The position numbers and the translations under genes are program-made. A stretch of DNA of 37,083 bases, taken from positions 1-37,083 of IMG/VR virus record IMGVR_UViG_3300025168_000251; one strand, given 5' to 3'. Below the pieces are notes generated by a model. It had not been told where the DNA came from, ran no database searches, and was given only the letters and a program-made list of their open reading frames with translations. Shown here piece by piece: positions 7,125 to 35,558 of the stretch; within the stretch, counting starts at the first letter, position 1, and every line of letters starts with the position of its first letter. Source of the DNA: a virus.

Positions 7125-7188
7125 TCTTGATGTGTTTATACATCAATTCTTTAAGGTATAACTCTTGAATCCAATCAGGTGATTTCAC
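7015..7188 (-). CDS. Possible overlapping 57-aa gene with GTG start
   Basis: A GTG at 7188 is preceded by a perfect AGGAGG with 5-base spacing (7194-7199), inside the nrdJ 3' end. The frame stays open for 57 codons, starting VKSPDWIQELYLKELMYKHIKNEK, and overlaps the zinc-ribbon gene in another frame. The first 25 residues look protein-like; the rest is low-complexity and probably shaped by the overlapping gene. The AGGAGG also encodes the Gly-Gly of the conserved NrdJ tail, so it may be coincidental. It could instead be a coupling leader for the zinc-ribbon gene. Confidence 0.3.
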   Translation of the reverse strand: MKSPDWIQELYLKELMYKHIKNEKAHEKDRTVEQGTKGTSTKNRRFPEQLQPPRTKY

Positions 7189-9034
7189 AACTTCCTCCTG
7201 CACATGCTAATTCTCCTGAAAGATTTGTATTATCTTCTATTTCAATAACTCTTGATAAATCTACATCGTTTAATGACTTCATCATTTCGTCATATTTTTC
7301 TTCTGTGATATCTTCAAATGGGGCTTGTGTATATGTTCCTCCATTATAAGGTAATACTGATAAACCATTATAATGGTTTCTATTTTCCCACATCCATTCT
7401 CCAGCAAGGTCCCATTCATCTTCTTTAAGACTTATAGTTGCAGAAACATTATGGGTATTAGATCCTTTACGATGGCCAGAGGATACCCATTCAGATGCCA
7501 CCCTTTTAACTCTTTCTAATGTACTAAATGGAGATTCTGTTCTAAGTATAGATCCTTCAGGAGCTTTTTGAGGCACTTGAATTACTGCTGTATCATGTGG
7601 TCTGAAATATTCGTCTTCCACTAATTCTGGATGATTTTTAATTAAGTGTTGATATATTGATTCATTTTTACCAACCCTAATTCTTCTAATATAATAATCA
7701 TTATGCCATGCATGAATACCTGAACTTGTACCTAGTACTAGTGATGTTGTTCCTGCAGGTTTAACAGTTGTTGTTCTTGCTGCTTTATTTATTTCTAAAA
7801 TTTTTGCAACTCTTGCATTTTCTTTTTTTACTAGCTTAGCTGATTCTGACATATCATAACCCAGTACCGTTCCACTACCAATTCCAGTCATACTAACACC
7901 AATTAGAGCTTCTTTCTCTGTTGTTTCTTGCCATACTGGTCTTAAATAATGAAAGTTTGTATATCCAGCTTGAAGTGTCCCAATAAATGCTGCAGTTTTT
8001 ACTCTTTCGTTTAAATCTTCTTGTGATTCTATATTTGAAACATTTACTTCACATAAGTTACAAAATTGATGAGGTCTTAATGCTATTTCACAACAAGGAT
8101 TAGTTCCCCAATCTTTATCATTATTTAGATAAATACCAGGTTCACCAGCTCCAGATAATTCTACACGTTTCCAAAGGTCCATAAAAAATCCCTTTGTTAT
8201 TTTGTGCCTCATTAAGCATGCAGAGTTATTAGCTCTACCTCTTTGTGGGTTTAATTCCCACCAATTACCAGATTTACAACCTATCATTTGCTCATCATCA
8301 GCATTAAATAAACTAATAAGTGCTGCCCTTCTAATACCTCCAGCAAGAACTGCATCTGCGATATGGCATACAATATCGTGGGCTTCTAATGTAGATAGTC
8401 TTTCACCTGTTTCTTTTGCATCAAGCATTCCTGTTAGTTTAAGTATACATTCTTTAAGTGGTTGTGGACCAGGAGCTTTACCACCAGAAGTTACAAGTTG
8501 GGCACCTTTTGCCCTAATATCTGAAAAGTCGAATTCTATTCTACTTCCTCCACCATTCATATAAGATTTCATTAAAACTTTAATGGCATCTGCCCAGCCT
8601 TCAATAGAGTCTCCAATTAAAAACCTACGCTTTCTTTTAGGAAAAGGCTTATTTATAACGGGTAATTTTTCAACATGATGTCTTTGTACAGAATATCCAA
8701 CACCTGTGCCACCTAACAGCAAAAACATTGTTTCACTAAATGAATCAATAGAATCTATTGGTAAATATGCACAATTATATATTCTATTTGGAGATATTTC
8801 AATTGGCTTTCCACCAAACTGGAGACTTCTCATTGAAGGAAGTACCTTTTTATCATATACTAGTTTATATTTTTCTTCTATTTCTTCCTTTAACTGTGGA
8901 AAACTCTTTTGGTGCATTTCCTTATTTCTTGTCACCAATTCTTCCCAAGACTCTCTTCTATTTAATTCAGGTAAGTACTTTGCGTACTTCATATAAACTG
9001 TAATTTCTGATAATATTTGATTTGATACTTCCAT
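7175..9034 (-). CDS. nrdJ: Adenosylcobalamin-dependent (class II) ribonucleotide reductase
   Basis: 619 aa. It reduces ribonucleotides to deoxyribonucleotides using coenzyme B12 as radical source. All landmarks of the monomeric class II type are visible: Cys88 (YNCAYLP) and Cys325 as the active-site disulfide pair, Cys314 in NPCCEI as the thiyl cysteine with Glu316 two residues on, and a C-terminal shuttle pair Cys611/Cys616 (CAGGSC). The 11-residue spacing Cys314-Cys325 equals Cys408-Cys419 of the Lactobacillus leichmannii enzyme. It is shorter than that enzyme (739 aa). Triphosphate substrates are likely by analogy. It removes any need for NrdB or oxygen but makes dNTP synthesis depend on host cobalamin. 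It follows the gp41 gene across a terminator-like hairpin. Confidence 0.93.
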   Translation of the reverse strand: MEVSNQILSEITVYMKYAKYLPELNRRESWEELVTRNKEMHQKSFPQLKEEIEEKYKLVYDKKVLPSMRSLQFGGKPIEISPNRIYNCAYLPIDSIDSFSETMFLLLGGTGVGYSVQRHHVEKLPVINKPFPKRKRRFLIGDSIEGWADAIKVLMKSYMNGGGSRIEFDFSDIRAKGAQLVTSGGKAPGPQPLKECILKLTGMLDAKETGERLSTLEAHDIVCHIADAVLAGGIRRAALISLFNADDEQMIGCKSGNWWELNPQRGRANNSACLMRHKITKGFFMDLWKRVELSGAGEPGIYLNNDKDWGTNPCCEIALRPHQFCNLCEVNVSNIESQEDLNERVKTAAFIGTLQAGYTNFHYLRPVWQETTEKEALIGVSMTGIGSGTVLGYDMSESAKLVKKENARVAKILEINKAARTTTVKPAGTTSLVLGTSSGIHAWHNDYYIRRIRVGKNESIYQHLIKNHPELVEDEYFRPHDTAVIQVPQKAPEGSILRTESPFSTLERVKRVASEWVSSGHRKGSNTHNVSATISLKEDEWDLAGEWMWENRNHYNGLSVLPYNGGTYTQAPFEDITEEKYDEMMKSLNDVDLSRVIEIEDNTNLSGELACAGGSCEIT

Positions 9035-13683: not shown

Positions 13684-13720
13684 TAATATAATAAAAATAA
13701 TTTACATTATAAAACTTTTT
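13684..13720 (-). promoter_or_regulatory. Bipartite promoter-like element upstream of gp32
   Basis: Same 13-base block, 7-base gap and 17-base block as at 757-793. The upstream block covers the stop of the UVDE gene (Lys-Val-Leu-stop). This is the only promoter candidate for the gp32-uvsX pair. Confidence 0.5.
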
Positions 13721-14723
13721 GTAAGTTATTTTCATATTTTTTTAGGTACGATTGTACCGTTAATTCTTTTGCTTTTGCTTCTACTACAACATCAATATCT
13801 AGTCCATAGTCTTGAATTTCTTCTATAATATAGTCTGAATGTGCTTGTACTTTTATTTTGCTAACTTCTTTATGCATTTTTGCAATCGTTGGCCAGTCGT
13901 GTAGTGTATCATGTGTTATATTATTTTTAGACATTATTTCTTCCATGATTAAGGTTTGTTCTTGTCTTCTAGATTCTGAGTAGTGAGTGCATTGTTTTAC
14001 ATCACCCCACGTAGATGCAGCAAGCCTTAGTGCTCCTTCCTCAGAAAGACCGCCAGGACAAAACTTATGGTGATGATAATCAAAGACAATAGGTATACCT
14101 ACAACACTGTATACATATTGATATAAATCCATTACAGAATACATAGAAGCTTTATCATCGTTTTCAACAGTAAGGCGGGCTTGGGCTGATGGTTGAAGAC
14201 GTTTAAAGTTTTTACAGAATCTATCTAGTGCAGATGGTTTATCTCCGTATGCACCGCCTACATGAATATTTATTTTTGCAGCTGGAGATTTTGGTAAACC
14301 CATAAGATCAAGAATTTGTGCTGTTTTATCTAGCTCGTTAATAGCATTTAGTACTACTTTTTCGTTTGGAGAAGCTAAAACACAAAATTGACCTGGATGA
14401 AATGATAGTCTTTGATTGTTATCCATTGCAAGCTTACCCACAGCTTTAAGTAAAGCACATATTTCTTGATAATCTGGTAAATCTGATAGTTTATATTCAG
14501 ACATCCAAGGCATCATATCACTTGACATACGATATACCTTTATATTGTTTTCATTATTCCAATTTACAATTTTTAGTAAATTAGTAATATTAATTAGTAT
14601 TAGTTCAGAAGCATAGTCAATGCCTTTAGCATCGAATGTTCTTCGTATCATACTTCTATTGCATGATATGCCTTGTTCTGCAAGGGTCATATTTATACAT
14701 GCGTATCCTAGTCTTTTTGCCAT
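13707..14723 (-). CDS. uvsE: UV-damage endonuclease (UVDE/UvsE family)
   Basis: 338 aa TIM-barrel nuclease that nicks DNA 5' of UV photoproducts to start alternative excision repair. It starts with the family's MAKRLGYACINMTL. Metal-binding signatures appear in order: RLSFHPGQF, INIHVGGAYGDK, LTVENDDK, VFDYHHHKFCPGG and THYSESR. All expected His/Glu/Asp ligands appear present, so it should be active. It sits directly upstream of gp32 within the DNA-metabolism block, and a promoter-like element precedes it. Phage-encoded UVDE would protect virion DNA in sunlit water, an ecological inference. Confidence 0.92.
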   Translation of the reverse strand: MAKRLGYACINMTLAEQGISCNRSMIRRTFDAKGIDYASELILINITNLLKIVNWNNENNIKVYRMSSDMMPWMSEYKLSDLPDYQEICALLKAVGKLAMDNNQRLSFHPGQFCVLASPNEKVVLNAINELDKTAQILDLMGLPKSPAAKINIHVGGAYGDKPSALDRFCKNFKRLQPSAQARLTVENDDKASMYSVMDLYQYVYSVVGIPIVFDYHHHKFCPGGLSEEGALRLAASTWGDVKQCTHYSESRRQEQTLIMEEIMSKNNITHDTLHDWPTIAKMHKEVSKIKVQAHSDYIIEEIQDYGLDIDVVVEAKAKELTVQSYLKKYENNLQKVL

Positions 14724-17932: not shown

Positions 17933-17943
17933 CTATAAATATC
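17933..17943 (-). promoter_or_regulatory. Late-promoter-like motif upstream of the 705-aa gene
   Basis: Minus strand GATATTTATAG, 15 bases before the ATG, overlapping the end of the polymerase gene. Shares GATATTTATA with the elements at 30896 and 32632. Confidence 0.4.
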
Positions 17944-19255
17944 ATGAAAACCTATAAGAAACATCTTTTAAGTCACCATAATTACTACCAAAGCTTATCC
18001 TAGTAGGATATTTCATTGCAGCCTTTATTTTTAAAATTAACTCTTTACCCTCTGACATATCAAAATCAAAGGTAAAACTGTCATAAGTATATAGTATGAA
18101 CTTGCTATTATAATCATTTAAAACCTTTATTACACGTTCCATAGCTTCAGAATTTAATTCTGTTTCAGCTGATTGGATGTAGTAGTTAAACAACTTTTGC
18201 GGATTCATTTCACCAATAGTTGATTGATATACTTTTCTATTATATAAGTATGTTTTATAATGGTTTTTTAACTTCCATTCTTTCCAAAATTTATAAATAA
18301 ATTCATTTACTTTATTAAAAAAGGGTATTTCTAAAAATTCTTTAGGAATTCCACCATATAGTAGTTGAAAACTTATTTGTTTGGCCTCTGAATATTGTTT
18401 TTTAGTAAGTTTATCTGTTGCAAAGTACTGTTTTCCAAGATATTCATGAATAGATTCATTAGGCAAGTCATATCCAATAATATCTCCTATTATTCTAAGA
18501 TGATATGCGTCATAATCTAGCTCTAATATTCCTCCACCGTTAAATCTACTGATATATTTATTTCTAGTACCGTCAGACTTATTTAAGGCAGCATAATTTA
18601 TTTTATTAAACGTATTACTTGGTCTTCCTGTTAAAGTGTACGTATTATAATTGCAATATTCATAACCATTACCAGTATATAAACCAGAAGATTCTATACT
18701 ATTTAAACTATTTAAAAAGCCACTTATTTTTTTATACCCAGATGATTTTACTCCACCTGTTGGCATTTGTTCTATATCTATAATATCTATAAGTTTATCT
18801 TCTAAAGATTGGCAGTATTCTATATGCTTTGTTATTGGTATAAATTCATTAATATTTTTCTTTTTCCAATACATAGAATATAATTTATTATGGGCGGCCG
18901 TATAGTCTTGATTTATTTTTTTACCAGAGTTAAAATATACCATTGAATTACAACAATGTGTATTTTTAAGGTTAAAATTATGATTAAATGTTTTAATATC
19001 ATGTACATATTTTTTATGCGGGGTATCAATTGCACCTGTAATTTCTTTAAGTGTAAATGTTTTTATTGCATCTGTATGTTTTATTGGTATATAATATTTT
19101 TGCACATTATTTAACATGGAAACATAAATACCAGTTAAGTTAGAACATCTAGGGTGACTAGAATGATCTGAGGGTATTGGTATGAGTATAATATCTGATT
19201 CTTTGCACTGGTGAGTGAATTCAGTAAATTGTAGTATTGTATCAATAATTATCAT
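17942..19255 (-). CDS. Short family A (Pol I-like) DNA polymerase
   Basis: 437 aa. Polymerase motifs in order: TGRPSNTFNKINYAAL (template/primer region), motif A LELDYDAYHLR near 244-254 with the metal-binding Asp, motif B EAKQISFQLLYGG near 289-301 with the conserved Lys and Phe, and motif C LYTYDSFTFDF near 386-396. Motif C has Asp but Ser where most family A enzymes have Glu (HDE becomes YDS), and motif B lacks the usual Arg. The N-terminal 130 residues show no DxE exonuclease motif, so proofreading is not evident. T4 itself uses a family B polymerase; this could be a replacement replicase or an accessory repair enzyme. It lies between virion genes, with a promoter core 5 bases upstream. 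Confidence 0.82.
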   Translation of the reverse strand: MIIIDTILQFTEFTHQCKESDIILIPIPSDHSSHPRCSNLTGIYVSMLNNVQKYYIPIKHTDAIKTFTLKEITGAIDTPHKKYVHDIKTFNHNFNLKNTHCCNSMVYFNSGKKINQDYTAAHNKLYSMYWKKKNINEFIPITKHIEYCQSLEDKLIDIIDIEQMPTGGVKSSGYKKISGFLNSLNSIESSGLYTGNGYEYCNYNTYTLTGRPSNTFNKINYAALNKSDGTRNKYISRFNGGGILELDYDAYHLRIIGDIIGYDLPNESIHEYLGKQYFATDKLTKKQYSEAKQISFQLLYGGIPKEFLEIPFFNKVNEFIYKFWKEWKLKNHYKTYLYNRKVYQSTIGEMNPQKLFNYYIQSAETELNSEAMERVIKVLNDYNSKFILYTYDSFTFDFDMSEGKELILKIKAAMKYPTRISFGSNYGDLKDVSYRFS

Positions 19256-26780: not shown

Positions 26781-29700
26781 TTATGCTCCTACTGGTCCTT
26801 GGGCTAAATTAAGTACTTCTCCAACCTTTCTTCCGTCCATATTTATTACTCCACCTTTACCTATTATTGTAATTAGTTCATCTATTTTTGCCTCTAATGC
26901 AGTGGTATCTATTTTTTGAGGTTTAGATGATGCTTCATCAGTATCACCATCACTTCCACCAAACATTCCAGTTAATCCTGCAATTGCAAGGGCTGGTGCA
27001 GCTATTGTTAGCATAGCCAATGTACCTTTAAAATCAGATACGTCTGCTAATCCTTCAGCAATTGAACTAAGTCCTGCTCCAACTTGTGCTAATCCTGAAG
27101 CAGTTCCAACTAGCATTGTTAAACTAGTTGCCATCATTCCAATACCAACAGCGGCAAACATTGCGGCTGCTCCAAATCCTAAAGTTGGAAACATTGCGAC
27201 TGCAAATGATCCAGCTAAAGCATATAAAGAAGCACTTAACATAAATATTGCACCAAACTGAGCAGCCATTTGTAAAAGAGGAGCAGCAACCCTTTCCAGT
27301 CCTATACCTAAAGTAATTGACGCTTGTCCTAGTAATTCTACGGCTGGCGCTGTAAAATACGCAGCTACACCAAACAAGTATAATGGAATTGCTGCGAGAG
27401 CAGTTGTTAAAGCTAGTACACCAATTGCTTGACCTAAATACATTATCTGAGGACCGTATGGTGCCATTAATATTAATGGTGGAGCCATATCAATCATCGC
27501 TTGTGCAACTATTGGTAAACCATCTATATATGGATATAATATAGACATTGACATTGCAAATGGAGCTAATCCTATACCTATTGCATAAAAACCTTCTCCC
27601 ATTACTTGGAATGTTTCAGCTATTGGAGCCATCATTAATAGAGCTGGAGCCATAGTCACTAAACCAGCAGCCATAATAGGTATTAATGGTACAAATTCTG
27701 CTAACATCATCATTCCAAATGCAAAAGGAATAAGGGCGTAACCTAATGCTGCAAGCGCCATTGAAGATATAAGTAATCCTTCTCCTACTGCAGATAATGC
27801 TACTAGTGGAGGAGACATTATTGCAAATCCTTCAGCTAACATTGGTAATAATGGAATATATTCTGCCATTATAGCTAATGCTAAAGCGAAAGGCAACATT
27901 CCTAGTCCAACAGCAGTAACTCCAGCTCCTGCAAGTATTAAACCTTCTCCAACCCCAGCTAATTGAACTAGTGGACCTAAAGCAGGCGCCATATCTCCTA
28001 GAGCCTCTCCTAAACCTTGTAATTTTTCAATTGTACCTTTACCAACCATAAACATAGCTATTGCTAAGAATGGAAGAGCAGCTGCTAAAGCTAATATACC
28101 TACACCAGCCTGAAGTAGTCCTGGTCCTGATGCAGCTAATGCTTGAGATGCAATTCCTATACCAGTTAATGTTTCAACTCCACCTGCTGCACTAAACATT
28201 AATGCTCCAACTGCTGCAATTGCTAAACCAGCTCCTAATATTGGAAGAGCCATACCCATTAAATACATTGCAGGAATTGCTGGATACATCATCATCATTC
28301 CTACCGCTAGTTGAGGTAGCATTGGTATCAATAGCATAAAATTAGGTATTGCTTCACTTACTATTTTTAATGCATAAGCCAATACTAACATAGCTGCTGC
28401 GACGATTAACATTGCGGCTGCTCCCGCTATGATTGCTAAAGCCCCTACACCTGACATCATAATCATACCTAGTAGTGCTACTGCTCCAACTAATGCTAAC
28501 ATTGATACAACAGCCATTCCAACAGCTTCCCAACTTACACCCATAAATTCTTGTACAGCTTTGGCAAATACATATACTGCTGCCGCTACCAATACCATTG
28601 CAGCTGCTCCTTTTACAACATCAGACATTTTTATTTTACCCATGGATTTCATCATTTTGTTAGCGCCTTCGCCTCCTTTAGCATCTACTTTAGGCAAATC
28701 TGTAGGAGCTTTACTTTTTGGTATTAATGATTCCTTAATATCTCCACCAGGGCCTTTATCTCCGCCTCCAAATCCTAATTTGCTCATCGCGCCTTTACCA
28801 AGTTTTCCTACAAAACCTAATACACCTTTAAGTTCTGATTTCCAATTTCCCATACCAGCAACAATTGCAACTACTGATTCTGCGTTTTCTCCAAGTAGCA
28901 TTCCTGCTCTTGCCAATAAACCTTCTTGTTGTTCTTGTATTTCGCCTGTTTCTTTATAGTGTTCTAGACCAGCTTCGGATAAATCATTTAATTTATCTTG
29001 GTTACCCATTATGTTTGTAATTTCCCCAACAGACATATTCATTGCGTCGGCAAGGGCTTGTTGCTGTATAACATTCATGCTTTGGAATTCTTCTAAAGAG
29101 CCAACCTGTTGTGTTAATTGTTTTGTAACTTCTAAATGGTCTCCTCTAAGAGCTGCTTCTCTGGCTGCGTTTAGGTTTAATTCTCTACCTATAAGTACAC
29201 TTGCCTCCATTTCTGCTTCAATGGACGTTTCAATATCAAGTAATCCTTTTCCTGCCTCTACAATAGAACTAAATTCTACACCAAGTTTTTTAGCTGCAAT
29301 TGCCGCTTTTGCTACATTTTCAAATCCTTTTTTACCAAATCTAGCAAATTCTTCAGAATTATCTGCCATAATACCTAGTAATTTTCCAGGAGCCAGTCCA
29401 TTAGCTTTCGCTAGGGCTATTGCCGAGCTTTGTAGGTTTGTAGCTAGTTTTTCACTACCACCACTCATCATCATTAAGTCTTTTCTAAATTGAGCAGCAC
29501 TGTCTGCACCCATACCAAATCTTTCAGCTAACAATGTTGTCTGTTTAACATTTTCCATTGTCAAGTCTTTCATTGACATACCAGTATCAAGCATTGCTTT
29601 TTGAGAAGATGCTATATGTTCTTGCTCTATACCCATACCAGCCATTGTTACGTTTAGAACCTTAGCTTGGCCAACCATCTTAGCTGAGTTTGTAAGACTT

Positions 29701-30608
29701 ACTCCTGTAGAGTTTGCAAACTCTCTCATATCTCTAGTAAATTGACCTATTTGGTTTGCTATAAATGCAAATGCCAATTGGCCATTGCTAAATATGCCAA
29801 TATATTTTGCTGCTGTTTCTTTAAGGCCATCTAGGAGTTCTTGTTGTTCCTGAAATAGTTTTGTTTGTTCTTCAAGTACTTGCCTAGTTTCAATACCAGC
29901 AATATTTTTCTCAGACATTAATTCGTTCATTTCTTTGGCTGAGTCTACTTGTTCGACAAAAAGATTATTCATGTCTTTAAGTTCTTGTGATTGTTCCATT
30001 TGTTTTGCTAGTATATCTGCTTGGCTAGCCCCAGAAGCAGTTAATGCTTCAACTTCATCACTATGGGAAAGTGCCATGCTTTCTAAAATTGTATCTTGTG
30101 AGCCCATTAAAGATCCAATATCTATATTTGCAGATTTTACTTCTTCTAACATACCAATATCTAGAGCTATAGTTTCAGTTAGTGCTGTACCTATTGCTAA
30201 GTTTCCACTTGCCAATGCATTTTTTGCAGCCATTACTGCATTTTGTTCTATTGCAAACTTTTTGAGAGCCATAGCTCCCATAATATCTTTTTCTTGGGCT
30301 GCTGCATGGTCACCCATTAATTTTGATAAGTTTTGTTGTTCTCTATTTAAGTCTCTAGCAAAATCAGAGGCTGTTGAATAATTATCAGCTAATTCTGCAG
30401 ATTTTTCTGCTATTGAGTCTAATCTTGATTGAGCAGCGTCTAGGTGTTTTTTATAGTCTTTAGCGGCCTTTGATCTTTTGTCAGCAAACTTAGCATACTT
30501 TTGACTCATAGTATCAACCTGTTTACTTGCTGATACTAAGAGCTTATTTTGCTTATTTAACTCTACATTGAGTTGAGACTGATCTTTTGCTGAAAACTTT
30601 TTGGCCAT
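26781..30608 (-). CDS. Tail tape measure protein
   Basis: 1275 aa. The order of regions is typical: an N-terminal coiled coil (1-120: KQVDTMSQKYAKFADKRSKA), a helical core at about 260-560 with FANSTGVSLTNSAKMV and MSVGEITNIMGNQDKL, then a long Ala/Gly/Met-rich hydrophobic region at about 665-1200 with many membrane-like helices. The end, GVINMDGRKVGEVL, is a common tape-measure terminus. It sets tail length and is ejected through the tube, the hydrophobic part probably entering the host membrane. It is about twice the length of T4 gp29 (590). It sits directly after the tail-assembly genes, the canonical position. The ribosome site is modest (GAAGAA). Confidence 0.85.
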   Translation of the reverse strand: MAKKFSAKDQSQLNVELNKQNKLLVSASKQVDTMSQKYAKFADKRSKAAKDYKKHLDAAQSRLDSIAEKSAELADNYSTASDFARDLNREQQNLSKLMGDHAAAQEKDIMGAMALKKFAIEQNAVMAAKNALASGNLAIGTALTETIALDIGMLEEVKSANIDIGSLMGSQDTILESMALSHSDEVEALTASGASQADILAKQMEQSQELKDMNNLFVEQVDSAKEMNELMSEKNIAGIETRQVLEEQTKLFQEQQELLDGLKETAAKYIGIFSNGQLAFAFIANQIGQFTRDMREFANSTGVSLTNSAKMVGQAKVLNVTMAGMGIEQEHIASSQKAMLDTGMSMKDLTMENVKQTTLLAERFGMGADSAAQFRKDLMMMSGGSEKLATNLQSSAIALAKANGLAPGKLLGIMADNSEEFARFGKKGFENVAKAAIAAKKLGVEFSSIVEAGKGLLDIETSIEAEMEASVLIGRELNLNAAREAALRGDHLEVTKQLTQQVGSLEEFQSMNVIQQQALADAMNMSVGEITNIMGNQDKLNDLSEAGLEHYKETGEIQEQQEGLLARAGMLLGENAESVVAIVAGMGNWKSELKGVLGFVGKLGKGAMSKLGFGGGDKGPGGDIKESLIPKSKAPTDLPKVDAKGGEGANKMMKSMGKIKMSDVVKGAAAMVLVAAAVYVFAKAVQEFMGVSWEAVGMAVVSMLALVGAVALLGMIMMSGVGALAIIAGAAAMLIVAAAMLVLAYALKIVSEAIPNFMLLIPMLPQLAVGMMMMYPAIPAMYLMGMALPILGAGLAIAAVGALMFSAAGGVETLTGIGIASQALAASGPGLLQAGVGILALAAALPFLAIAMFMVGKGTIEKLQGLGEALGDMAPALGPLVQLAGVGEGLILAGAGVTAVGLGMLPFALALAIMAEYIPLLPMLAEGFAIMSPPLVALSAVGEGLLISSMALAALGYALIPFAFGMMMLAEFVPLIPIMAAGLVTMAPALLMMAPIAETFQVMGEGFYAIGIGLAPFAMSMSILYPYIDGLPIVAQAMIDMAPPLILMAPYGPQIMYLGQAIGVLALTTALAAIPLYLFGVAAYFTAPAVELLGQASITLGIGLERVAAPLLQMAAQFGAIFMLSASLYALAGSFAVAMFPTLGFGAAAMFAAVGIGMMATSLTMLVGTASGLAQVGAGLSSIAEGLADVSDFKGTLAMLTIAAPALAIAGLTGMFGGSDGDTDEASSKPQKIDTTALEAKIDELITIIGKGGVINMDGRKVGEVLNLAQGPVGA

Positions 30609-30623
30609 TGGTTATTTCTTCTA

Positions 30624-30866
30624 CTAACTATATTTTTTAGCTAATTTTTTCCAACTGGAATTATACTTATCTCTTTCAGGAGTTTCTGCATTCATTAAAT
30701 CCTGTATTTCTGGAGTAGATAAAAGTTTTTTTATTGCCCTTTTTTTGGCTGCTGATCCTAGGTTATCTAGTATATTATGTAGGAATTTTACTAAAACATT
30801 GTCTTCTTTTAAAACGTGTTTTAGTTCTTCTCTAACTAGTTTTCTTACTTGTGTTTCTTTTGACAT
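30624..30866 (-). CDS. Small basic helical protein before the tape measure
   Basis: 80 aa, Lys-rich and mostly helical (VRKLVREELKHVLKEDNVLVKFLHNILDNL), with no Cys. It has a strong AGGAG site and a late-like motif about 30 bases upstream. It lies between the frameshifted gp26-like gene and the tape measure gene, where tail assembly factors are usual. Function unknown; an assembly factor or tape-measure partner is possible. Confidence 0.65.
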   Translation of the reverse strand: MSKETQVRKLVREELKHVLKEDNVLVKFLHNILDNLGSAAKKRAIKKLLSTPEIQDLMNAETPERDKYNSSWKKLAKKYS

Positions 30867-30925: not shown

Positions 30926-31141
30926 TTAACGTCTTCTAGAGGGTTTTGCATTACTTTTTGATTTAGCCTTATCCATTTCTTCTTTTTCAGCCTTTTTAGC
31001 TTCTACAAGTTTTTGATAGTTAAATCGTCTAAGATGTACAGGCATTTCATAAAGCACATCCCAGGGAAAACCCCCTTGTGAGTGGTAAGCTATATCAAAT
31101 AACTGTTGGTGCAGAATGGGCCTATAGTTAGGCCCTAGGCC
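30926..31141 (-). CDS. Frameshift extension of the gp26-like tail protein (chaperone-type second frame)
   Basis: 71 codons with no usable start: the frame opens after a TGA at 31157-31159, and its first ATG is codon 33, inside the well-formed part. The sequence (YRPILHQQLFDIAYHSQGGFPWDVLYEMPVHLRRFNYQKL, then a Lys/Glu helix ending SRRR) looks like the small helical domain that follows tail assembly chaperones. It is reached from the 290-aa frame by a +1 (or -2) shift in the 29 bases between 31156 and 31128, which contain seven Ts (31142-31148). A product fusing residues 1-286 to this extension would be about 357 aa. Inferred, but open frame, absent start and location before the tape measure agree. 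Confidence 0.65.
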   Translation of the reverse strand, partial: GLGPNYRPILHQQLFDIAYHSQGGFPWDVLYEMPVHLRRFNYQKLVEAKKAEKEEMDKAKSKSNAKPSRRR

Positions 31142-32000
31142 AAAAAAACTGGACGGTCATTGGGAGTTGCACGTCGTGCTCCTCTCCAGTATTTTCATCA
31201 TAGTATGTATGTGTTAGGTCAATATCAGGAGATATTTCATTCATATATTCCCTAAATGCTAGTGAATCTCTAGATAAAAATTCATCATCAACAAATTTAC
31301 CAATAGTTACCCTATCATGTTCTCCATCTACAGAGACAAGCATAAATTTAAGCCTAGTACTTAGCTCGGGACTAACACCAGTTATTCTTTTTCTCATTTT
31401 TTTGTTGGCTTTAATTTCATTTTGAATTTTCTTTTCATCTCCATGAGTAAGAAGTTTAAACTCTATAGTTCTTTTTGATGCTGGTAGTTTAAATGAAAAT
31501 AAGTTTTCGCCTTCAGTAAATATTGCTGGATCAAATTCTTTTAAGTCAAACTGTGTTAAATCTATAACTTCTGTTTGTTTGTCTCCAGATGTTGGACTAG
31601 TTAATTCAACCTCATAGTCTTTACCATATGCTAAAACTCGAGCTGCAATCATTATTGCATTTTTATCACCAACAAGTAAATCATCATAATTTATTGGACT
31701 AACAATAAGATTTTTTAATAATACATCAATAACTGTACCATTTTTTATTAGGTTTTGAGAAGTCAAAATATCTTCTTCTTTTGCAGTCATATATTTTACT
31801 TCAATTGTTCCAGAAGATAATGGACTACCCTTAGGATATAATAATCCCTTTGATGGTAAATCTATTGTTTCTGTTGGAAACTTTAATTCCTTTACTGCTT
31901 GTTTAAGTTCTGGGGCAGCCTGTTGTATTACTTGATTTTTTAATTCTTGGTCCGAGAGTCTATTTTCTCCTGGATAGTCTGAGTCTACTACTTTTGACAT
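31128..32000 (-). CDS. 26: T4 gp26-family tail/baseplate protein, likely tail assembly chaperone
   Basis: 290 aa. Matches the T4 baseplate gp26 family pattern: TIDLPSKGLLYPKGSPL near 45-60, VKYMTAKEEDILTSQNLIKNGTVIDVLLKNLI near 68-100, then a D-x-N helix and AARVLAYGKDYEVEL. The usual Cys pairs after it are absent here. It ends MTVQFFWPRA. A strong AGGAG site and a late-like motif lie upstream. Gene order tube, this gene, tape measure is the tail-assembly-chaperone arrangement, and a second frame at 30926-31141 continues the protein if ribosomes shift at the T-run near its end. Confidence 0.75.
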   Translation of the reverse strand: MSKVVDSDYPGENRLSDQELKNQVIQQAAPELKQAVKELKFPTETIDLPSKGLLYPKGSPLSSGTIEVKYMTAKEEDILTSQNLIKNGTVIDVLLKNLIVSPINYDDLLVGDKNAIMIAARVLAYGKDYEVELTSPTSGDKQTEVIDLTQFDLKEFDPAIFTEGENLFSFKLPASKRTIEFKLLTHGDEKKIQNEIKANKKMRKRITGVSPELSTRLKFMLVSVDGEHDRVTIGKFVDDEFLSRDSLAFREYMNEISPDIDLTHTYYDENTGEEHDVQLPMTVQFFWPRA

Positions 32001-32032
32001 AACTGTATCTCCTATTGCTTTTTGTTCATAAC

Positions 32033-32120: not shown

Positions 32121-32612
32121 TTAGTATTGTAATATCCAGTAATCACATTGAATAGTAATAGTAATTTCATTTGCGGCAGCTGTTTGTGTCCAATCAATTG
32201 CTCCAAAATCTGCAGAAGTAATCATTGCACCTTTACCGGTCCATTCTTCTACTTTATCACCTACTGGTCCAAGTATATTAATCGTTACATCTTTCTTATA
32301 GAAATCTGCATAACCATCTCTACCTGTTACTGATTCATGATGTAAACGTACCCATTCCATAACGGCTTGAGCCCCTGATGGTACAATTGGGTCATATAAA
32401 ACTAAATCAATTGTTTCCCATGTAGTTTTACCTTTCACATATCGTGAAACATTCATGTGTTGTAATTCTAAAGCTTCAGTTGCTAGTTTTGGTCTTGCAG
32501 CTGTTTTAATTAGATAAGCTGGAATTCCATCAACATAGAATATAAACCTATTTTGTTGTTTTGGCTCAAAGGCCGTGAACATTATTTCATTTGGATCTAC
32601 TAAGTTTGCCAT
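32121..32612 (-). CDS. 19: Tail tube protein (T4 gp19-like)
   Basis: 163 aa, the same length as T4 gp19. It shows the beta-rich tube pattern: QQNRFIFYVDGIPAYLIKTAARPKL, a WETIDLVLYDPI segment, WVRLHHESVTGRDGYADFYKKDV and the C-terminal ADFGAIDWTQTAAANEITITIQCDYW. Hexameric rings stack inside the sheath to form the tube. AGGAG ribosome site, late-like motif about 20 bases upstream, terminator directly downstream. Confidence 0.92.
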   Translation of the reverse strand: MANLVDPNEIMFTAFEPKQQNRFIFYVDGIPAYLIKTAARPKLATEALELQHMNVSRYVKGKTTWETIDLVLYDPIVPSGAQAVMEWVRLHHESVTGRDGYADFYKKDVTINILGPVGDKVEEWTGKGAMITSADFGAIDWTQTAAANEITITIQCDYWILQY

Positions 32613-32669: not shown

Positions 32670-35558
32670 CTACTCTTCAAATGATGCGCCAGTTCTCATA
32701 ATGTTGAAGTCTACAATGATAAATTCAGCAGCTTTTGCAGGCTGTAAGAATATTTCACCTTTCATTTGATTTCTGTCAATTACATCTGGTGTATTATTTG
32801 ATTCGTCCATTACAACTTTAAATGCGTAAAGACCTTGTTGAGCTTGAACTGTTTCTAAATACGGGTTAACAATATTTAAGAATCTATTTCTTGTTGCTGT
32901 TGTATTGTTTTCAAATACAAGATATTTTGTAGATGAAGCAATAAACTTCTTAAGTTTTATTAGTAATCTTCGTACATTGATTCTATCTAAAGCTGATGGT
33001 TTAGTTTGTAAAGTTTTCTGACCCCAAACGCAAACTCCTGTATTAGGGAATACTGCTATTGGATTTACTTTACCTTCATATAAATCATCTCTTTCATTAT
33101 GAGTTAATCTTGAGTAAACATCGATTACAGTATTTAAACTTCCTCTATTTAATCCTGCAGGAGCAAACCAAGGGAAGGCAACTTTATCATTGAAAGCTAT
33201 TACACCTGGTACAACAACTGAAGGCGGTACCCAAACAAACCTATTAACCGTTGCATCAAGTATTTTTACCCAAGGGAAATATGTTGCTGCATAGCTTGTG
33301 TCATATAAATCAGCGTTTGCTATTGCACTTGTTGTGTTTTTTCCAGAAGTTGAGTTTACTCCATCCATTACATAGAAACAATCACCTCTACTTTCACAAG
33401 TATCAATAATTTTTGCAACTATATTAGAAGCGTTTTCTGCAAGTATTCCTGGCATAACGATCATGTTAATATCAATTTCATCAGGGTTTCCAACTGAATC
33501 TAATGCTTTTTTGTATGCTACAAAACCATCAGTAGTAGTTGATGCAAAACTCATACCTAAAGTATTGGTAGATAACATATCTTTTTCCATTGCTACTTGA
33601 GTTGCTGGATTAACTCCATCATAACCTCCTTGGAATGCAAGTGAAAATCTTTTTGCATGTAAAGAACTATTAACAGTTACCGTTGAACCAGTAACTTCAC
33701 AACTTTCTAAAAAGAATGCTTTATTTTCTCCAATACTTGCATCATCACTTAATGGAGCAAGATAGTTTTCCATTCCATTTTTAAGAATAGTTTCATCAAA
33801 GTTGAATCCGTAATATGTTTTTGTATCTGTATCTAAACTTCTAGATGTTACTAGTGCTGCTGTAGGATATGCTGCACCTGATGCATGTATTCCTACATGT
33901 GGATGTGTATATGCTGGAAGACTAAATGGTGAGATATAAGGTTCGTGTCCGAATGGTACTAATGCGTCTGAGTAAACAGCGTTATTAGCATTTTCGTGCA
34001 TTTCAACCCTTACATATCTTGACATGTTTCTATAATTACCTAAAACAACTAATTTTGCATTACCATCAGCGTCATTAGAATATTCTTGATATTGATCACC
34101 AATAACTCTAGCTAAATAGTTTGGTGAACTTGGATTTAGGTTACAATTTGTATGAGATTCTAAAGAAACTACTTTAGTATCAGTATCATCGAATTTTCTA
34201 ACAAGAACAGTAAAGCTTCCATAATCTATTCCAGATATTGAACCAGCCTTTTTAATTCCAACAATACTAACTTTACATATTTGGTTTGAGCCATTACCAT
34301 GTGATAATGTATGGAACTTAAATAGTGGACTTCCTGCGTTACCATTTAATTTTTGAGATAATACCCAAGGTGTACATGCTGCTTTATATTGTTTTCCTGA
34401 AGTAGTACTTGTTGTTCCAGTTACAGTGGCTGCTGATGCGACAAAGTTTACACTTGCTGTAACTGCAGTTGCATTAAGGAATGAATATCCACCACCTTTA
34501 TTTGTAGCCATTGCTCCATAAGATTGTGAGTTAAATAAAGAATATACATATGATTTTTCTAAAGCAGATTGTCCTGCAGTAGGTACATGTCTTCCTGGGT
34601 CTGTAGCTAATACATTTTTAAAGTAATTAGCATTTGTTTTATCAAAAGAAGTAGATAAAGGTAAATCACTATTTGCAAAATCAGTAAGTGTTGTTATTGA
34701 TGACCCATTTATTGAATCATAGAAAAATCCATTACCAGTATTTGCAACTCCGTGTTGAAATTGGTGTCCTCCATGAAGAACTGCAACAGGAGCAAAGAGT
34801 GCGACTGCAGCTAATGCAGATCCAGTTGATATAAGATATCCATTTGCAGTTGTACCAACTTTATTTGCTGTTAGGTTTACTGAAGATTCTGAAGCTACTG
34901 CAGTTACTAAATCAGTAAGTGTTGTTGCTCCATTTATTTCAGCTGCAAGATTTGCTATAGTTGCTGTTCCAGTTGAACCTGTAGCATAATAATAGAGTGG
35001 GTGTTGGTCTGCAGGTATTGCTGAAGGATTAGCACCTATAAACCTATAAGTAGTACCTTCTGCTGCAATCTGAAATTCTGTTAGCCTGCTTGTTGCTGCT
35101 TGTTCAACATCTATACTACATGATATAGATGCAGTTGCAAAAGTTCCTCCACTAGGAGAACTACCAAATACAATATCACCAGCTTGTTGTGTTGAGTTTC
35201 TAGAGCTTGCATGTACTAAACCTAAGATATAAGGTATTTCATCGGATTGCGAAGCTATTAAATATACTTGTTTTGGTAAACTAGTCACATAACCATTTAG
35301 TCCTAAAACACGAACAATAGTTACTGCGCCAGCACTTTTTAAGTATTCTTTAACGGTATATGGTACATATGTACCTGCTGTTCCGCTTCCAAATTTTAAT
35401 TCAAATTCATTTGTTGAACGAACTACTGTTGGTTGAAAGGCTGGGCCTTTTTCAGTTCTACCTATAATAGCCGCTCCTATTTCGCCGATACCTACAGGTA
35501 AAAACGATAAGTCATTTTCTTGTGTGAAAACACCTGGACTAACGATTCTTTCTGCCAT
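32670..35558 (-). CDS. 18: Contractile tail sheath protein (T4 gp18-like) with insertion
   Basis: 962 aa against 659 in T4. The N-terminus (RIVSPGVFTQENDLSFLPVGIGEIGAAIIGRTEKGPAF) and C-terminus (LNIVNPYLETVQAQQGLYAFKVVMDESNNTPDVIDRNQMKGEIFLQPAKAAEFIIVDF) are classic sheath ends that form the intersubunit mesh. Extra length lies in the middle, including a module at about 145-270 (TTYRFIGAN, then TIANLAAEINGATTLTDLV) that matches modules of the 1718-aa fibre. This would be displayed outward on the sheath. GAGGAG ribosome site 9 bases before the ATG and a late-like motif about 60 bases upstream. Confidence 0.93.
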   Translation of the reverse strand: MAERIVSPGVFTQENDLSFLPVGIGEIGAAIIGRTEKGPAFQPTVVRSTNEFELKFGSGTAGTYVPYTVKEYLKSAGAVTIVRVLGLNGYVTSLPKQVYLIASQSDEIPYILGLVHASSRNSTQQAGDIVFGSSPSGGTFATASISCSIDVEQAATSRLTEFQIAAEGTTYRFIGANPSAIPADQHPLYYYATGSTGTATIANLAAEINGATTLTDLVTAVASESSVNLTANKVGTTANGYLISTGSALAAVALFAPVAVLHGGHQFQHGVANTGNGFFYDSINGSSITTLTDFANSDLPLSTSFDKTNANYFKNVLATDPGRHVPTAGQSALEKSYVYSLFNSQSYGAMATNKGGGYSFLNATAVTASVNFVASAATVTGTTSTTSGKQYKAACTPWVLSQKLNGNAGSPLFKFHTLSHGNGSNQICKVSIVGIKKAGSISGIDYGSFTVLVRKFDDTDTKVVSLESHTNCNLNPSSPNYLARVIGDQYQEYSNDADGNAKLVVLGNYRNMSRYVRVEMHENANNAVYSDALVPFGHEPYISPFSLPAYTHPHVGIHASGAAYPTAALVTSRSLDTDTKTYYGFNFDETILKNGMENYLAPLSDDASIGENKAFFLESCEVTGSTVTVNSSLHAKRFSLAFQGGYDGVNPATQVAMEKDMLSTNTLGMSFASTTTDGFVAYKKALDSVGNPDEIDINMIVMPGILAENASNIVAKIIDTCESRGDCFYVMDGVNSTSGKNTTSAIANADLYDTSYAATYFPWVKILDATVNRFVWVPPSVVVPGVIAFNDKVAFPWFAPAGLNRGSLNTVIDVYSRLTHNERDDLYEGKVNPIAVFPNTGVCVWGQKTLQTKPSALDRINVRRLLIKLKKFIASSTKYLVFENNTTATRNRFLNIVNPYLETVQAQQGLYAFKVVMDESNNTPDVIDRNQMKGEIFLQPAKAAEFIIVDFNIMRTGASFEE

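Follow-up and report, generated by a model that had tools for sequence, protein, structure and literature searches.

The window, i.e. the whole stretch of 37,083 nucleotides of viral DNA analysed here, carries on its minus strand a run of tail genes, in which a gene of the T4 gp26/gp51 family is laid out in two overlapping reading frames. In what follows TAC stands for tail-assembly chaperone, TAC-N for the part read in the zero frame and TAC-C for the C-terminal extension in the +1 frame. The features are:

32670..35558, minus strand: tail sheath protein (PF04984 and PF17482 above cut-off)
32121..32612, minus strand: tail tube protein (gp19-like), upstream of the chaperone (PF06841, E=5.2e-6, just under the curated cut-off)
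32009..32013, minus strand: Shine-Dalgarno-like AGGAG ahead of the TAC-N ATG (sequence TAGGAGATACAGTTATG)
31128..32000, minus strand: TAC-N, putative short-form tail-assembly chaperone of the gp26 family, 290 aa (PF12322, phrog_150)
31142..31148, minus strand: slippery run TTTTTTT, zero frame TTT TTT T (TTTTTTT in 79/83 loci, TTTCTTT in 4/83)
31137..31141, minus strand: GGCCT past the run, dual-coding and nearly invariant (junction counts, per-base conservation)
31118..31135, minus strand: stem-loop GGGCCTA-ACTA-TAGGCCC, 7 bp, 6 nt past the run (register count, covariation)
30926..31141, minus strand: TAC-C, C-terminal extension in the +1 frame, 71 codons and stop (conservation, codon-position selection, model)
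30624..30866, minus strand: 80-aa ORF between TAC-C and the tape measure gene (gene-order context only)
26781..30608, minus strand: probable tail tape measure protein, 1275 aa, downstream of the chaperone (length and position)

The order sheath, tube, chaperone, tape measure is shared by the window and two cultured phages, Microcystis phage Mel-JY01 and Flavobacterium phage immuto; in the window one 80-aa ORF precedes the tape measure gene, and Mel-JY01 has a 71-aa ORF in the equivalent position. For the 80-aa ORF no convincing family was found in PHROGs. The tape measure candidate matches no Pfam family and is considered probable by its length and position; its similarity to the protein following the Mel-JY01 chaperone is weak, at 36% over 265 residues. 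The sheath domains of the 962-aa sheath protein are confined to residues 684-953, so that about 680 residues lie N-terminal of them. Elsewhere on the minus strand the window encodes a short family A DNA polymerase (17942-19255; 437 aa), whose Pfam match covers profile positions 113-358 out of 381 and which may lack the usual N-terminal exonuclease part, a UV-damage endonuclease UvdE (13707-14723; PF03851, E=2e-57) and the large subunit of a ribonucleotide reductase (7175-9034), in which the insertion domain of the B12-dependent class is matched weakly. Rfam and tRNA scans of the window gave no matches.

TAC-N runs from the ATG at 32000 to the TAA at 31130-31128 and ends in ...VQFFWPRA*. Its matches place it in the family of T4 gp26 and gp51 (PF12322, T4_baseplate; 41.7 bits against a curated cut-off of 24.5) and in phrog_150 (baseplate hub). 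The +1 frame carries a TGA at 31159-31157, is then open to the stop at 30928-30926 and reads FFGLGPNYRPILHQQLFDIAYHSQGGFPWDVLYEMPVHLRRF... By these coordinates zero and +1 frame can be joined only inside 31156-31128, which confirms what an earlier reading by a model (hereafter the sequence-only reading) had stated, namely that the junction is limited to 29 bases with TTTTTTT among them. Counting GGC (31141) as codon 1, the extension in the window has no ATG, GTG or TTG ahead of codon 29; its first possible start is the GTG at codon 29, followed by an ATG at codon 33. The absence of an early start had been recognized correctly, but codon 33 had been taken for the first one.

On its own the extension matches no Pfam or PHROGs family. 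The two halves were modelled separately. The TAC-N model (pLDDT 88) is nearest to the baseplate hub subunit of phage SP-15 (TMt 0.88) and to T4-like hub assembly proteins, and the TAC-C model (pLDDT 85) has three predicted helices at residues 6-20, 27-32 and 35-63. A PDB fold search with TAC-N or TAC-C gave no significant match, solved chaperones included; the solved tail chaperone HK97 gp13 (2ob9) came at rank 13 (E=2.5, probability 0.23), short of significance.

A scan of viral contigs confirmed at least 598 relatives, of which the best 80 were kept, and the loci with a shared slip region form a set of 83, the window included. Throughout this set the +1 frame is open (83/83, with two cut off by the contig end) and codes for one and the same helical domain. 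The median open length past the slip point is 72 codons in the +1 frame and 3 in the -1 frame, i.e. more than chance would leave open. Phage records of three lineages at 43-53% identity show the two-frame layout as well, and both Mel-JY01 and immuto carry it. The sequence-only reading had ascribed protein character to the 71-codon frame, as a continuation of the 290-aa gp26-like protein, and had suggested looking for a two-frame arrangement among aligned homologues; the 83 loci bear out the former and display the latter. Conservation of the extension starts with the first codon past the T-run (alignment consensus GLxPxYRxxLHxQIFxLxYHGxGGFTxxxVYNMPIxLRxFY). In 188 pairs of relatives its changes number 3299, 2550 and 6275 at first, second and third codon positions, respectively, and 3321 of 4739 single-change codons (70%) are synonymous; judged by this comparison the extension is under purifying selection.

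In the zero frame the run is read TTT TTT TGG CCT. It is invariant, except for one base in two loci, among the 50 loci with less than 75% nucleotide identity. Of the codons at the two slip positions of the 83 loci, the 162 that encode Phe are all TTT, and the other four are CTT, in each case as the second codon; elsewhere in these genes Phe is written TTT in 78% and TTC in 22% of cases, and because the loci are related no simple probability attaches to the all-TTT pattern. The adjoining GGCCT codes for Trp-Pro in the zero frame, (T)GG CCT, and for Gly-Leu in the +1 frame, GGC CTA. The zero-frame stop follows 9 to 21 nt past the slip point in a sequence that varies among the 83 loci. Since the run is invariant, Gly-Leu is conserved from the very next codon and the stop region is variable, the slip is placed at the T-run. 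The sequence-only reading had left two sites open; TTT stands, and the GCC TAA C stop region, which varies in position and sequence, is rejected.

At the conserved sites of the loci examined (UUU_U, CUU_U or UUU_C) a tRNA could re-pair one base ahead. One relative without the seven-T run (L003, about 4748; LR756508.1) reads AAC TTT CTA TTC CCT; here a +1 slip on TTT_C, placed one codon earlier, can join the frames. An internal Shine-Dalgarno stimulator of the prfB kind was also considered and rejected, as it is present in 8 of 83 loci and thus not above the 13% background.

The stem-loop downstream of the run covers the first bases of the zero-frame stop codon. A perfect 7-bp stem at the window's register is present in 16 of the 83 loci. 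Comparable hairpins occur at 0.2% of positions elsewhere in the same genes, so that about 0.2 perfect stems would be expected against the 16 seen. The covariation set consists of the 18 loci that form six or more pairs. In it 98.4% of cells pair, a fraction inflated by the choice of these rows for pairing (the register count is independent of that choice), and five of the seven pairs have changed on both sides. The covariation score of 0.448 compares with 0.220 (sd 0.033) in shuffles and with 0.08 or less when the register is slid. On the TAC-N tree the stem is found in all members of two well supported clades, the window's own (4/4) and another (7/7); elsewhere it is scattered or absent, and most of the 83 loci have none. 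A stem-loop common to the whole family is therefore rejected. The covarying stem is restricted to some clades and is a candidate stimulator in these lineages rather than a general requirement.

On our best reading the locus is probably the tail-assembly chaperone gene of a T4-like contractile-tail phage, with a 357-aa long form that would be made by a programmed +1 frameshift. Programmed slippage on TTT TTT T that fuses the gp26-family protein to the extension, as proposed by the sequence-only reading, is strongly supported on comparative grounds; the shift had been given as +1 (or -2), and it is +1 by frame, with -2 yielding the identical frame. Most ribosomes would stop at the zero-frame TAA and release TAC-N (290 aa), and a fraction would slip +1 on UUU_UUU_U and continue through the 71-codon helical domain to produce TAC-NC (357 aa). 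We infer a pause at UGG, where slow reading of the codon may aid +1 slippage, and within the window's own clade the stem-loop 6 nt downstream would be the candidate stimulator. The role as a tail-assembly chaperone is suggested by family, gene order and analogy to lambda. The same analogy (gpG/gpGT) would have TAC-N cover the tape measure protein, with tail-tube subunits brought in through the additional domain of TAC-NC.

One trait of the run goes beyond a simple slip. The third base of the first TTT is T in 83/83 loci and is unneeded for simple P-site +1 slippage; its constancy is a hint of a tandem +1 shift, a -2 shift or an E-site effect. It is conceivable that both Phe positions of the all-T heptamer count, through a mechanism that spans two codons (tandem +1, or -2), and we entertain this only tentatively. 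Under a tandem +1 or a -2 shift alike, a homologous chaperone family would have changed the direction of its shift between clades and kept the fusion product.

A -2 shift by itself would move the tRNA on the second TTT back two bases and give the same fusion with FFF-GL at the junction (358 aa). The seven T's would allow perfect re-pairing, and the invariant third base of the first TTT is needed for it. There is also a precedent in the tail chaperone gpGT of phage Mu, which has been called the sole -2 shift known from nature (PMC3498833). Mu and the window share a frame change equivalent to +1, but Mu reaches it by -2, whereas +1 is favoured in the window: by hand analysis Streptococcus phage GXN1 (GAA TTC TTT CGT) and L003 (AAC TTT CTA) re-pair badly at -2 and perfectly at +1, an indirect argument since both are distant relatives. 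We regard the -2 shift as improbable; if true, it would be the second natural case after Mu.

Translation of TAC-C alone, by internal or coupled initiation after TAC-N, is a good deal less probable still. The Mel-JY01 and S-PM2 records do annotate the second part as a gene of its own, and many loci have some in-frame ATG, GTG or TTG in the extension. These starts are not conserved in position, however, and the window's first one, at codon 29, falls within the conserved domain. No start codon precedes extension residue 20 in 20 of the 83 loci (L039 has none at all), and an upstream +1-frame start with a Shine-Dalgarno-like motif is found in only four of the 83. The invariant T-run would be left unexplained.

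Slippage of RNA polymerase, which T runs are known to be able to cause and which would put a fraction of the mRNAs in the other frame, seems hardly credible, since the TTTCTTT loci and GXN1 (TTCTTTC) interrupt the run and yet retain the frame change. A seven-base run is also short for efficient transcriptional slippage. Least probable of all is a homopolymer indel from sequencing or assembly, or a decaying gene; homopolymers are prone to error, but about 80 contigs drawn from many metagenomes, and cultured phages besides, agree in the seven-base length and the frame relation, which argues against an error, and none of the loci of the clade has both parts fused in the same frame, with the extension under purifying selection.

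The +1 frameshift on the T-run can be compared with the arrangements found elsewhere in the family. T4 gp26 and gp51 both match PF12322, and gp51 has an additional C-terminal part (phrog_634). T4 thus resembles the window in having one short and one C-terminally longer protein, but it encodes them in two separate genes on opposite strands, whereas the window has a single gene with a +1 frame change. T4 genes 26 and 51 adjoin each other and can still be recognized as paralogues (E=2e-6 over 161 aa; L088:4803-6229). Separate short and long genes of the T4 type were not seen in the records listed for Mel-JY01 and immuto, the window being a fragment; each of these records has one TAC-N place and one TAC-C place, and a separately coded second long form was not seen in them.

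Cyanophages (80 contigs, S-PM2 included; L092-L171) and a jumbo-phage group (8 contigs; L175-L182) are like the window in family, position, overlapping frames, poly-T site and C-terminal domain, but their extension is encoded in the -1 frame, following U_UUU_UUC, and not in the +1 frame following UUU_UUU_U. Where their gp26-like gene ends and the frames meet, TTTTTTC is invariant. By hhalign the TAC-C of the window group is homologous to its counterparts in the cyanophages (probability 93%, P=3e-7) and in the jumbo-phage group (probability 89.5%, P=2e-6). The cyanophage TAC-C in turn resembles the C-terminus of gp51 (P=7e-5); direct comparison of the window TAC-C to T4 gp51 found no homology. 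The +1 layout is also present in SP-15 (TTT TTT C), GXN1 (TTC TTT C) and RM378 (TTT TTT T), whose extensions are homologous by eye at most; viral-contig scans with these three queries returned only the query phage or one weak relative. With a +1 clade, -1 clades and two genes in T4, one family appears, from sequence comparison, to use three solutions. In public records the extension figures as a hypothetical protein that is short or has a different start in immuto (L002:4839-4949), Mel-JY01 (L001:4836-5072) and SP-15 (L005:4755-4874), and the 'gp51' of S-PM2 is annotated as a separate gene with its start past the stop.

Similar sites are known from unrelated genes. The bacterial prfB site, CUU_UGA_C, slips +1 on a CUU P-site codon followed by a pyrimidine, and its internal Shine-Dalgarno stimulator is absent from the window, where the site is UUU_U with UGG next. 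Influenza PA-X (UCC_UUU_CGU; PMC3498833) slips +1 on a UUU P-site codon followed by a pyrimidine, which GXN1 resembles with TTC TTT CGT. Among tail chaperones, SPP1 gp17.5/gp17.5* shares a U-rich slip site with the window, there for a putative -1 shift at UUUUUUC (PMC6316719). Lambda G/GT and P2 E/E' provide a short and a frameshifted long chaperone upstream of the tape measure gene (PMC5009743), as in the window, where gene position, conserved overlapping frames and a conserved slippery site all recur; the lambda shift is -1 instead of +1, and the likeness to lambda and P2 is one of layout, without a shown sequence relationship. Phage 0305phi8-36 has a two-gene tail chaperonin (PMC2147016). 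A 2016 review called G-T frameshifting widely conserved with T4 as the exception (PMC5009743), and in a 2010 review gp26 and gp51 already figure among the hub assembly chaperones (PMC3004832).

The sequence-only reading was right to link the gp26 family to the chaperones, but the link is not new. The abstract of Vladimirov et al. 2022 reportedly states that frameshifting is conserved in several T4-like groups and that T4 uses genes 26 and 51. As that work is cited, gp26/gp51 are tail-assembly chaperones of T4-like phages (PMC10885494, PMC12846349; cf. PMC3004832), these phages carry one short and one long chaperone gene (PMC10885494), and polyT slippery sequences, described as -1, occur in T4-like TAC-N genes (PMC12846349). 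The +1 direction, the U7 site with a stem and a change of direction inside the family were not found in the literature searched, outside of which Vladimirov et al. 2022 lies; the +1 direction and the U7 site with its stem look new.

Together with the 2022 report, as far as it is cited, our results place a large group of environmental phages with a probable frameshift in the T4 chaperone family. The direction goes by clade, +1 in the window group and -1 in cyanophages and the jumbo-phage group, with two genes in T4, and this series of clades offers natural material on how a frameshift signal can change direction without loss of the product. UUU_UUU_U, GGCC and the stem form a compact element. 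In public genomes the long form is overlooked or annotated as a separate hypothetical protein. Across the window group, its distant relatives and T4, the chaperone product appears to have been kept and the way of making it changed.
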